Below, piece by piece: positions 40,902 to 47,099 of a stretch of DNA of 64,000 bases. The position numbers were made by a program, and so were the translations under genes. The first letter of the stretch is position 1. Every line of letters begins with the position of its first letter. A model generated the notes under the pieces. The model was given only the letters and a program-made list of their open reading frames with translations, did not search any database and had not been told where the DNA came from. This DNA is from Salvelinus alpinus (lineage: Eukaryota > Chordata > Actinopteri > Salmoniformes > Salmonidae), in the NCBI RefSeq assembly GCF_045679555.1, contig NC_092091.1, forward strand, positions 74,525,580-74,589,579, given 5' to 3'.

Positions 40902-41029
40902 GAGAGAGAGAGAGAGAGAGAGAGAGAGAGAGAGAGAGAGAGAGAGAGAGAGAGAGAGAGAGAGAGAGAGAGAGAGAGAGAGAGAGAGAGAGAGAGAGAG
41001 AGAGAGAGAGAGAGAGAGAGAGAGAGAGA
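40902..41029 (+). repeat. (GA)n microsatellite, 3' side of the LINE
   Basis: 128 bp of uninterrupted GA, that is (TC)n on the LINE's coding strand, directly abutting the LINE 3' end. Confidence 0.99.
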
Positions 41030-41202
41030 CTTTGACTTTTTGTCTTTCTTTATTGAAACATTCTCATTTCATTTAAAACTCACCCCCCCCTAAAATAAAA
41101 AAACAAAAATATATCCTGTACTGCATACATGTACCATACTCACCTTTCCATCTACCACATGATACAAACCACCATCACCATACACAAAAACAATACCCTC
41201 TC

Positions 41203-44200
41203 CTACAACCGTATATCCAAAACATCTTCCCCAGCAATACAGACAGCCCCCCCAACACACCATATCTCCTCAAACATCTCCACACATTTGATCAGTTTAT
41301 AGAACTCAAACTCAACCCTAAGGCGCGCAGAGACCATCCCATTAAACAGTAGTAAAGGGTCTGTTATCCCCCCAACTTTGACCCTGTTTCTCCTTGTTAG
41401 CCAAATAGCTAATTTTGCCTGAGCAAACAGAAAATTCAACAAAACACATTTTTCTTTCTCCTTACTCGAATACCTGTATCCCATTATAAACATCCCAACA
41501 GCAAAAACCACCCCCAACCTGTCACACAGACATTCCAGCAGAGACATTAAAGGCATTAACCTGGTGCACACAGAAAACACATGAATCACAGTTTCTTTCA
41601 TTTGACAGAAAGGACACCCCTGCCCAATTCCCGGATCAACCCGTGCCAACCAGCTGTTAGTGGCCAGGGCTCCATGAAGAACCCTCCACTGGAGGTCCCC
41701 TGACCTCTTTGGTACTGGGGGTTTGTAGAGCGCCCTCCATCTAAAACCCACCATACTCTCCGCCCCACATACCCCCTGCCACTGATGTGCCTTCACTCCT
41801 GTTAGGCTTCTAATGTTCCTAACCTTAACGCAGAGGTTGTAGATGGCTTTACCTCCCACCCCCTCAAACTCCCCCAGGCTCGGAGTGTTAAAATCTAACA
41901 AGTCCTCCAGACCCCCTTGCCAGTCTCCAGTCTCTGCCGTCACCTGCAGTGGCGGAAACATTGGTGGCCCCTCTCCCTTTGGCCTCTCAAACACCCCCCT
42001 TACCGGCTCAGACAGTGCCTCCTGGACCTCCTCCAGGAATCTCTCCAGCAGCCTAAGAGACGTTATTCCTGTTTGTTGCGCCAAGACCTCCGGGGTTTTC
42101 CACCCCTCCTCTCCCAGCAGTCTCAGGTCACCTAGCCTTTGTAAACCCCCTGCCATCAGTTGCCTCTGCAGGGTGGCCGACTGAACCGATCTCAAAGGGA
42201 TGGCTGGGTTGTGGAAAATAGGCTCCTCCCACACCCACTGCCCAGGCTCCACACCCCCTTCTCGTGTGGGCCTTAGCAGCTGCCAGGCCCTCAGCACCGC
42301 AGAGTAAAACTCTGAGAGACCTGCTGTACTCAGCCTCTCCAGCTTCATGAGGAACAGCTGCCGGTCCAACCCTAATCCGCCAGCTCTCCTCAGCAGCGCG
42401 CATGCTGGTTCCCTCCAGCCAACATCAGTATGGTACAGCAGTCTCTGCACCGCCTTTAGCCGGAAAGCAGCCATCCTGCTCTCCAGTTCCACCAGGCCCT
42501 GTCCTCCTTCGTGGACGGTCATGTACAACACTGCTGCCTTCAGCCAGTGATGGCCCGACCAAAAGAAGTCCACCAGCTTGCGTTGCAGGTCTGCAAGCAG
42601 ACCGGCGGGGGGGTTGAGGACAGCCAGTTTATGCCACAAGGAAGATGCCACCAGGTTGTTGATTATCAGCACCCTCCCTCTATATGACACTTGGGACAGG
42701 AGCCACCTCCACCTGGCCAGTCTTGACACCACTGCCTGTGACAGCCCCTCCCAGTTCTTGCTGACCCACCTCTCCGAGCCCAGGTACACCCCCAACACTT
42801 TAAGCCCTTCACAACCCCACTGCAAACCCCCTGGAAGCAGAGGAGGAGCCCTATCCCCCCATGCCCCACATAACAGAGCTTTGCTCTTTCCCCAGTTTAC
42901 CTTAGCTGATGAAGCTCCCTCGTACACCTTCAGACTGGTCTCTAGTTCCTGCATATCTTGCCCATCCCTGACCATCACAGAAACATCATCTGCATATGCT
43001 GAGACTGCTATTCCTGTCACCACACCCATGCCTGTCCAGCACACTCCCCGCAGTCTCCTGCGTAGCAGTCCTAAAAAAGGCTCAATGGCTAGTGTGTACA
43101 GCTGCCCAGATAGAGGGCATCCTTGTCTAATGCCCCGTCTCACCCAGACAGGCCTACTGAGCGCCCCTCCCACCTTAACCATACATGACGCCCCAGCATA
43201 CAACAGCTTCACACAGTTCACAAAGCTCTTCCCAAACCCAAACACAGACATCACATTAAACAGATACTCATGATCCACTCTATCAAAAGCCTTCTCTTGA
43301 TCTAAAGAGACCAGTCCAAAGTTCACATTAGAACCTCTCGACAAGTCCAACATGTCCCTAATCAAGAACAAGTTGTCCGTGATTGAGCGTCCCGGTACAC
43401 AATATGTCTGGTCCTTGTGTATTATAGAGTCCAGATGGGACTTCAGTCTGTTAGAGAGGACCTTGGCAAATATCTTATAGTCCGCACAGAGTAATGCCAC
43501 AGGCCTCCAGTTCTTAAGTTCACACAAGTCCCCTTTTTTGGGCAGGAGAGTCAGTGCCGCCCGACGGCAGCTCATCGGCAACTCTCCTACCTCGACGCAT
43601 TCACGCAACACGCAAAAGAAATCCTGTCCAATAGTTCCCCAGAATTTTTTGTAAAACTCCACTGGAAGTCCATCGACCCCGGGTGCACGACCGGGGGACA
43701 TCTGGGTTACGGCCTCTGCCAGTTCATGTGACAACAGAGGAATGTCCATTTCATCCCTCTGTGCCCGAGAGAGCTTAGGGAGTCCTGCGAACAAGACCTG
43801 AGCACACATAGGATCACACATTTCTGCCCTATACAATTCAGTATAAAACTCCACAGTCCGCTCCCGCATCTCCCCCACCACAGAGGTCACCCGCCCATCA
43901 GACAGCCGTAGACAATGCATACCCTTGGCTTCACTGCTCTGTCTTTCCAAACCAAAGAAGAAGGAGCTGGGAGCATCCATCTCCTTGAGCATGGAGAACC
44001 TAGCTCTTACAAGTGCTCCCTTTGCTTTAACCTGGAAAAAACTACCCAGGTCCCTACGTAATTCGGCTAAGTTAGCCTGGAGGCCTACATTGCCTTGCCC
44101 CACCATCTCTACCTCCATCTCACTAATACACCGCTCTAGTTCCCCCAATACTCTCCTAGCCTCTGAGGATGAGAGAGCTGTGTACTGTTGACAGAAAAGC

Positions 44201-45168: not shown

Positions 45169-46767
45169 TTAAACAGTGTCTGAAGGTAAACCTTTACGCA
45201 CTGTTGTGACCCACTTCCTCAACCTAAACCGTTTCTTGGGTGAGAGGACACCATGCCCCTCATTTCTCATAGCATGTTGTACTGATCTTACAAACTTTCT
45301 AGAATCAGGAAAAAAAGCCTCAAGATTAACTTTTTTCCCCTTAGTCTCATTCAGGAACCTTGTCAGTTCTCTCAACGTGTACTTAGACCCTTCTGGTTGA
45401 CTGGCTGTCAGCTCCGGGCCAATTGAAGAGGAGTCTGAAAAAAATAACTCCTCATCCTCTTCCTCAGACTCACTTTCCTCCTCTTCTCTATCTCCCACCC
45501 TGACCACCTGCTCTTTCTCTCTGGTTAGGGCCTCACCCACAGCAACAGGCAACATTTCCATGGTGCCTTTGTCCACACCCTTTTTCCTTTTCCGCTTGAC
45601 ACCCTCCTCCTCCCCCCCTAATCTCTTACACTTCCCCACTATACTCTCCTCATCCACTAGAATAACCTGACTAGACCCAGTATCATCTACACCACCCTCC
45701 ATAGCATGACTCGGCCCAGCATCATCTGCACCACCCTCCATAGCATGACTCGGCCCAGCATCATCTACACCACCCTCCATAGCATGACTTGGGCCAGCCT
45801 CAGCTACCCCACCATCCATAGCTTGACTAGACTCAGCCTCTGCTATACCACCATCCATAGCCTGCCTAGACCCAGCACCCTCTACACCACCCTCCATAGC
45901 ATAACTAGGCCCAGCCTCAGCTACCCCACCATCTCTAGCCTGACTAGACCCAGCCTGTGCTTCCCCACCATCTCTAGCCTGACTAGACCCAGCCTCTGCT
46001 TCTCCACCATCTCTAGCCTGACTAGACCCAGCCTCCACTACCCTACCATCTCTAGCCTGACTAGGCCCAGCCTCATCTACACCACCATCTCTAGACTGAC
46101 TAGGCCCAGCCTCTGCTGTCTGCATCTCCTTACCCCCTGCATTTTGACCTCGATTTCCCCCATTTGCGCTTGTATCCTCACCTTGTCTACGGCCTTTATG
46201 TGGGCACGCAAAGCTCTTGTGCCCCAAATCCCCACATTCAAAACACCGTAGACTATCTGTGCTGGCAAAACCTGCATAGAGCCCCTCCCCATGCCTCACT
46301 TTAAAATGCACATTTAGCTGTTGCTCGTTGTTGTTCAGAAACATAAACACTTGCCTCCGGAACGAAACAACGTGTTTAACGGCATCTGCCTGAAACCCTG
46401 CTGACAGTACACGGAAACCGCTAGCAAACTTACCAAAACGACTCAGCTCTTTCCTAATTTGATCATCCGTGATAAACGGAGGCAAATTTGCCACTACAAC
46501 TCTTGTTGAAGGGGTAGAGAGAGGTGAAATTGACACCAACACATCCCTTACAAATATTCCGCTAGCAATTAGCCTACCGACCAAATTAGCCCTTTTCATG
46601 AACACAACCACAGCTTTGTTCATTCTAGAAGCAGAATGTATAAACTCAGCTCCTACCTGTTCACCGACCGCGAGCAGAACCTCCTCCACCTTAACTCCGT
46701 TCTCAGGAACACACCTGAATCCATGCTGTATAGACAGCGTCTCCTCCGCGCTAGGCTGAGAAGCCAT
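45169..46767 (-). CDS. Tx1-like LINE ORF1 (zinc-knuckle, gag-like)
   Basis: About 532 residues from the ATG at 46767 (MASQPSAEETLS); the frame is open 21 bases further up but without an ATG. An RRM-like region (VVVANLPPFITDDQIRKELS) precedes a CCHC zinc knuckle, CFECGDLGHKSFAC. Then about 13 tandem 13-residue units of AGSSQARDGGEAE type, a basic patch (KRKRKKG), a strongly acidic stretch and a basic C-terminal domain. This is the nucleic-acid-binding partner of ORF2 in ribonucleoprotein formation. It ends TAA immediately followed by the ORF2 ATG. Confidence 0.9.
   Translation of the reverse strand: MASQPSAEETLSIQHGFRCVPENGVKVEEVLLAVGEQVGAEFIHSASRMNKAVVVFMKRANLVGRLIASGIFVRDVLVSISPLSTPSTRVVVANLPPFITDDQIRKELSRFGKFASGFRVLSAGFQADAVKHVVSFRRQVFMFLNNNEQQLNVHFKVRHGEGLYAGFASTDSLRCFECGDLGHKSFACPHKGRRQGEDTSANGGNRGQNAGGKEMQTAEAGPSQSRDGGVDEAGPSQARDGRVVEAGSSQARDGGEAEAGSSQARDGGEAQAGSSQARDGGVAEAGPSYAMEGGVEGAGSRQAMDGGIAEAESSQAMDGGVAEAGPSHAMEGGVDDAGPSHAMEGGADDAGPSHAMEGGVDDTGSSQVILVDEESIVGKCKRLGGEEEGVKRKRKKGVDKGTMEMLPVAVGEALTREKEQVVRVGDREEEESESEEEDEELFFSDSSSIGPELTASQPEGSKYTLRELTRFLNETKGKKVNLEAFFPDSRKFVRSVQHAMRNEGHGVLSPKKRFRLRKWVTTVRKGLPSDTV
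45680..46110 (-). repeat. 39-bp in-frame repeats within ORF1
   Basis: About 11-13 imperfect units encoding AGPSQARDGGVVE-like peptides. The 39-bp length keeps the ORF1 frame. Units drift from QARDGG to QAMDGG to HAMEGG along the protein. Confidence 0.88.
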
Positions 46768-46978
46768 TGCGCACACTACACCTTCCAACCCCCAGGAAAG
46801 TTACTCTGTCCTCTTCCACCCTAACTTTGAAAAAAAAACTTTGGATACCGCCAAAAACAAATATTGCATTAACCCTCCACCATAGAAAATAACATGTAAA
46901 GAAAAGAATCAAGAAAGTTAGTTAGGATAGAGCTTTCCACACCAAACACTCAGACTCCAAAAACACCCAGCATGCACC

Positions 46979-47099
46979 GAGAGAGAGAGAGAGAGAGAGA
47001 GAGAGAGAGAGAGAGAGAGAGAGAGAGAGAGAGAGAGAGAGAGAGAGAGAGAGAGAGAGAGAGAGAGAGAGAGAGAGAGAGAGAGAGAGAGAGAGAGAG
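46979..47099 (+). repeat. (GA)n microsatellite, 5' side of the LINE
   Basis: 121 bp of uninterrupted GA abutting the LINE 5' end. Confidence 0.99.

Follow-up and report, generated by a model that had tools for sequence, protein, structure and literature searches.

A young LINE of Salvelinus alpinus and its probable (TC)n microsatellite target

A long interspersed nuclear element (LINE) lies inside a pure (TC)n microsatellite in the genome of Salvelinus alpinus, which raises the question of whether the microsatellite is the element's target. The stretch analysed (hereafter the window) comprises 64,000 nucleotides of contig NC_092091.1 (positions 74,525,580 to 74,589,579), and the element lies on its minus strand (Table 1). 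A first-pass annotation, made from the letters of the window, had described the LINE as sitting in (TC)n, with TC at both ends of its body and no poly(A) tail. Direct reading bears out this description: both flanking tracts are 100% pure, and no poly(A) tail is present at the 3' end, where just AAAG stands ahead of the TC tract. The element is very probably a recently active, autonomous LINE of the L1 group (APE-type) that inserts sequence-specifically into (TC)n by target-primed reverse transcription. The observations behind this reading are the target, orientation, junctions and tail variation of the copies, together with their open frames and signs of selection, an empty site and a near-identical copy.

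Flanks, orientation and completeness of the family's copies

Copies of the element were fetched from the same genome (L numbers denote the loci fetched and C numbers its contigs). Allowing up to two mismatches, a 25-base word from the 3' end occurs 162 times in the genome, compared with 2 times for the reversed control, and a 25-base word from the 5' end occurs 169 times, compared with 0 for its control. The 3' flanks were tabulated for 58 loci, namely the first 30 (window copy included), 20 further 3' ends, many of them picked for having no listed 5' end or for unusual sequence, and 8 found by an internal probe; 57 of the 58 junctions were readable, the other (L118) being an assembly gap on whose far side TC follows. 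All of the first 30 loci adjoin TC, as do 56 of the 57 readable flanks, the tract being imperfect or short in L101, L110, L117, L031 and L032. Similarly, TC or TC-rich sequence precedes all 50 of the 5' ends sampled (window copy included; 30 were taken as exact GG matches, then 20 more from one-mismatch rows). Genome-wide, and independently of the fetched sample, the 3'-end word AATAAAGAAAGACAAAAAGTCAAA has 111 exact occurrences, of which 105 reach GTCTCTC within 10 bases; of the other six, the three that were read (L027, L110 and L117) still have TC. TC in nearly all copies examined upholds the first-pass proposal that the element targets microsatellites.

The TC stands on the coding strand at every TC-flanked end examined, and orientation is uniform. 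A genome-wide count of TC-flanked 5' ends (124 forward, 70 reverse) is no usable total, the forward figure including many copies twice. Words of (TC)12 or (GA)12 start at 1.74 million genomic positions, and TC tracts of 24 bp or longer make up no less than 0.15% of the 2.37 Gb. If their share is assumed to be 0.3%, finding 30 of 30 3' ends in TC by chance has p ~1e-75, a figure that covers tracts of at least 24 bp, the shorter tracts used by a few copies being commoner. The 5'-truncated copies L132/L093 and L137/L109 have TC on both sides as well, and because truncated copies share this feature, we take TC to be the target.

Full length was the rule among the copies examined. On contigs C1–C9, where 52 3' ends were paired against 62 5' ends, a 5' end was located no more than 12 kb upstream for 40 of the 52 (at 4.3–10.8 kb); four of the remaining 12 have a diverged 5' end (L120, L128 and L089) or start at base 27 (L125), bringing the 3' ends that retain a 5' end to 44. 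Outside this set lie L137/L109 (C17), a truncated copy of 460 bp, and L136/L139 (C25), which has an internal deletion. Some copies are head-to-tail neighbours with one common TC tract (e.g. L026/L041, L077 and three copies on C6); array members are co-oriented because the orientation of insertion is fixed, and the equal spacing of the three C6 copies (6,022–6,023 bp) suggests later duplication. At L140 (C7:58334600–58337000), a piece of the 3' end (body positions ~5700–5771) is now a tandem array with steps of ~52 bp over 2 kb.

Junctions, empty sites and a proposed route of insertion

The junctions are very uniform at the 5' end and variable at the 3' end. Each of the 50 5' ends starts directly after TC, 30 with GGTGCATG, 17 with GCAGTGCATG, one with AGTGCATG and two with variants; these counts give no shares per type, since the sample was chosen by GG match and then from one-mismatch rows. 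The 3' end across copies is a variable (A)nGTC tail: among 100 matches listed of the 105, the segment between the last GTC of the body and the TC tract reads A3–A8 then G in 97 and holds extra GT(C)/A units in three. We take this variation to resemble that of the tail repeats in other LINEs, which are prone to slippage, and the terminal GUC of the tail could pair with GA. In some copies the 5' type is at odds with the 3' sequence group, which suggests a mosaic origin; L069/L142 on C1 begins with GCA, yet its 3' 1.5 kb (L025) is 99.8% like that of the window copy, and L073 + L029 joins a GCA-type 5' end to a 3' part of the near-identical group.

The window copy interrupts an older repeat, and both first-pass claims about this host, that the flanks are the two halves of one repeat and that it defines a clean pre-insertion site, agree with the relatives examined (6 of 40 listed). 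Both halves are joined across 22–132 bp in L143, L144, L145 and L147. Two of these, L143 and L144, share the chromosome of the window, and their left and right flanks are 94.7% and 97% identical; in place of the LINE they have GA tracts, 132 bp long in L143 and 127 bp in L144, each broken once or twice. In L145 and L147, 44 and 22 bp lie between the repeat flanks; L148 spans the join and continues into 200 bp of the right half, with 120 bp of mixed GA/GAAA, and L146 holds the left half only and diverges past the tract. Other listed copies of the host repeat carry GA at the insertion point.

From these junctions we infer the nicked strand, the UC:GA priming and the order of steps. The ORF2 endonuclease (see below) would nick the (GA)n strand, and the freed GA 3' end would pair with the last two bases, UC, of an RNA ending in ...AnGUC. 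Reverse transcriptase (RT) would then copy the RNA, with slippage on the repeated tail giving the variable (AnGUC)m end, and the cDNA would usually be completed to the RNA's first base and rejoined in the same TC phase.

Several observations weigh against target-primed insertion into TC as we propose it. A search among the tabulated flanks for non-microsatellite sites yielded one, the 3' flank of L097/L129 (C5), an old rearranged copy. The TC runs for just 12 nt in L031 and 8 nt in L032 before other sequence begins. Eight of the 52 3' ends on C1–C9 have no demonstrable 5' end: L132/L093 (C4) is truncated at base 3627, within TC, L130, L131 and L133 meet assembly gaps, and L090/L032, L129/L097, L138/L096 and L140/L101 are interrupted or degenerate. 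Finally, the filled site in the window carries 249 bp of TC (128 + 121), compared with 127 and 132 bp in the two empty paralogues, and this counts against our reading because a plain split of one tract predicts no doubling. L090/L032 was also considered as an insertion at a non-TC site and dropped; its 5' neighbour, presumably another mobile element by resemblance, abuts the body near position 1231.

The same excess of TC at the filled site is what would be expected if TC travelled with the element, that is, if transcripts began and ended in the flanking TC and the UC/GA ends of the cDNA annealed to a TC tract, bringing extra TC. The 5' junctions and TC phase are indeed very uniform, 5' truncations are few, and AATAAA lies close enough to the end to place the expected cleavage site inside the TC tract. 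However, the TC that precedes the truncated ends of L132 and L137 could not have come from a 5' RNA leader, the lengths of the pure flanks are unequal in many of the 11 paired copies, and microsatellite length is unstable; we consider this explanation unlikely. It is likewise doubtful, to a similar degree, that insertion copies or duplicates its target, through UC ends of the RNA or a tract-long target-site duplication, and so roughly doubles the TC. Equal 5' and 3' tract lengths, taken up as a sign of such duplication, are not general among the 11 paired copies (e.g. 24/81, 189/86 and 153/66), and because flank lengths vary this widely, one locus does not decide whether insertion lengthens the tract. 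If duplication did occur, each jump would yield more target and head-to-tail arrays could grow.

It is highly improbable that the endonuclease lacks specificity and that insertions occur anywhere with microhomology, surviving only in harmless TC tracts. Microsatellites are, as a matter of general knowledge, tolerant sites, but a young family should then show other sites, whereas 105 of 111 exact 3' ends run into GTCTCTC; TC tracts of 24 bp or longer account for 0.15% of the genome or more, and orientation is fixed. That the tracts are no target and arose later, by expansion of the ends of the inserted element in the way that LINE tails such as poly(A) seed microsatellites, deserves almost no credence, being contradicted by the empty paralogues, by other host-repeat copies with a GA tract and no LINE, and by TC on both sides, also upstream of 5'-truncated copies.

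Coding capacity, age and known relatives

Consistent with the first-pass description of two open frames, the window copy has no in-frame stop within ORF1 (532 aa) or ORF2 (1,321 aa); the 539 aa given for ORF1 in the open reading frame list counts from a TTG start, and 532 aa from the first ATG. At TAAATG (45166–45171, minus strand) the ORF1 stop directly abuts the in-frame ORF2 ATG, and ORF2 could arise there by reinitiation or stop readthrough; the junction in L090 is identical. ORF1 also has a weak RRM match (E 0.028). ORF2 matches Exo_endo_phos (E 1e-9) and RVT_1 (E 4e-32), and its best relative of solved structure is human L1 ORF2p (E 1.9e-67, residues 33–874, endonuclease and RT), while R2 matches in the RT region only (E 1.9e-21); L1 and R2 are the only LINEs among the solved-structure matches. 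The motifs with the catalytic residues of endonuclease and RT (LNINGA, QETH, YAPN, GDDWN, SDHH and YADD) are all present and align with human L1, a single gap falling at GDDWN. With an N-terminal APE endonuclease and an RT most like that of L1, ORF2 belongs with the L1 group. Across the genome, all 150 zf-RVT (L1-type LINE) matches scored, out of 4,823 candidates, exceed the curated cut-off, and several lie in open frames of 1,246–1,274 aa, which are other intact-looking L1-type families.

The youth suggested for the element in the first pass is borne out by a dispersed copy on C19, which aligns with the window copy over 5,949 bp without a gap and with 5 mismatches; the 3' flanks of the two copies show no detectable homology, and the 5' flank of the C19 copy as read is 16 bases of TC. 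Most copies are open: 22 of 30 (window copy included) are free of stops and indels over 450 ORF2 codons, 23 of 30 (window copy included) are open across the first 437–438 ORF1 codons, and both frames of L142 (C1) stay open throughout the 5,561 bp that were read. Compared with the window copy, eight copies of a more diverged 3' group show changes at 14–18 synonymous and 6–9 non-synonymous codons of 450 in ORF2, many of the changes probably being shared and hence not independent; the pattern carries apparent signs of purifying selection. In the near-identical group synonymous changes are about as frequent as non-synonymous ones, or the latter are commoner, as for young unselected copies.

The element is best read as Kibi-like, a Kibi-type/Tx1 label that would rest on target, architecture and literature and not on a tree. 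Kibi elements target (TC)n; KibiDr1 and KibiDr2 of zebrafish and KibiFr1 of pufferfish were reportedly described by Kojima and Fujiwara in 2004. A TC-targeting kind of LINE is thus already known from other fish, and the present family is a new and unusually clean member. Like Kibi, it is a fish L1/Tx1-type non-long-terminal-repeat element, likened by target and description and not by sequence, and it shows the Kibi-type trait of being flanked by (TC)n at either end, the TC lying on the coding strand (50/50 5' and 56/57 3' flanks). Mammalian L1 shares the two ORFs and an APE-RT-Cys ORF2, L1 ORF2p being the best solved relative; it has a poly(A) tail, a loose target and mostly truncated copies, whereas this LINE has a short (AnGTC)m tail and a strict target, and most of its copies in the examined set are full length. 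Koshi, Mutsu, Dewa and Tx1L have targets other than TC. Together with Keno, these target-specific elements of the Tx1 clade have an APE endonuclease and target specificity in common with the present family, in which the two likewise occur together. A passage of PMC4640811 ascribes APE-type endonucleases to target-specific Tx1-clade elements and gives U2 small nuclear RNA genes as the target of Keno. Another passage there describes Togen (including Togen-1_SSa and Togen-1_OM) as (TG)n-specific fish elements related to NeSL; these are also microsatellite-specific fish LINEs, but of a clade encoding a restriction-like endonuclease, with another RT lineage and TG instead of TC as the target. For Kibi itself, a table in PMC2684134 gives 5 and 14 full copies of KIBIDR1 and KIBIDR2 in zebrafish, and the pufferfish table of PMC2996927 lists KibiFr1 under L1; copies of the S. 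alpinus family are more numerous (162 3' ends at two mismatches or fewer).

The literature searched, Repbase being outside its scope, yielded no description of a salmonid TC-specific LINE family, and the passages searched yielded none of the integration chemistry of microsatellite-specific LINEs; PMC4176376, followed as a Tx1 source, was a false lead, "TX1" being a name for mutants there. Endonuclease preference, tail priming and 5' completion are directly testable in this family, which suits integration tests because it offers many young, mostly full-length copies, readable junctions, some open frames and paralogous empty sites. By inference, it would be a vertebrate LINE that does little harm owing to its landing site.

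Features of the locus

Table 1. Coordinates of the element, its target tracts, its host repeat and other features of the window
Feature	Position	Strand	Details
LINE body	41030..46978	-	5,949 bp; coding-strand start GGTGCATGCTGGG, end GTCAAAG
3' flanking TC target tract	40902..41029	-	128 bp; GA on + strand
5' flanking TC target tract	46979..47099	-	121 bp
3' untranslated region (UTR)	41030..41202	-	173 nt
AATAAA	41049..41054	-	19 nt ahead of the body's 3' end
5' UTR	46768..46978	-	211 nt
ORF1	45169..46767	-	from first ATG at 46767; TAA stop at 45169 end
CCHC knuckle of ORF1, single	residues 175-188	-	E 0.006, below Pfam cut-off
39-bp tandem repeat in ORF1	45662..46117	-	11.7 copies
ORF2	41203..45168	-	from first ATG; alternative Met28 at 45087
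APE-type endonuclease, ORF2 residues 33-260	44389..45072	-	aligned with human L1
Reverse transcriptase, ORF2 residues 543-795	42784..43542	-	YADD present
C-terminal zf-RVT region, CCHC residues 1185-1201	41563..41766	-	27.0 bits, slightly below 27.5 cut-off
Host repeat, left half	40334..40901	+	
Host repeat, right half	47100..47912	+	
Long minisatellites, among others	9869-13659; 15900-16880; 28118-29346; 6551-7562		

The fold of the 3' UTR beats 200 of 200 shuffles (z -3.8), and its last 81 nt give a weaker signal (z -1.9; 9 of 200 shuffles equally good). An HDV-like ribozyme at the 5' end was considered and dropped, since Rfam gave no match to 46500–47200 even at E values as high as 5. The motif GCATGCTGGG stands within the first bases of the LINE (46967–46978, minus strand); we presume from its resemblance to the ZNF143/THAP11 motif that it might be a promoter mark of the element. 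As a ZNF143-like promoter motif (CCCAGCATGC) it is only a lead, the window copy reading TGGGT and not TGGGA; the older copy L089 reads TGGGA at this place. TGGGA is the core of the ZNF143 motif as given in a passage of PMC11118474.

Around the element, the window contains a direct segmental duplication (1–6862 and 54132–60948, ~54 kb apart, 92–98% identical) and a pair of inverted copies (37338–39173 and 50377–48579, 91%). Two relatives of the host repeat, at 95% identity, lie close by on the chromosome of the window. Its minisatellites include arrays of 54 bp x 70 and 31 bp x 32, with others of 24 bp and 18 bp, and a 21-bp CCTATCACCCCTCCTGTCTCT-like array recurs at several positions.

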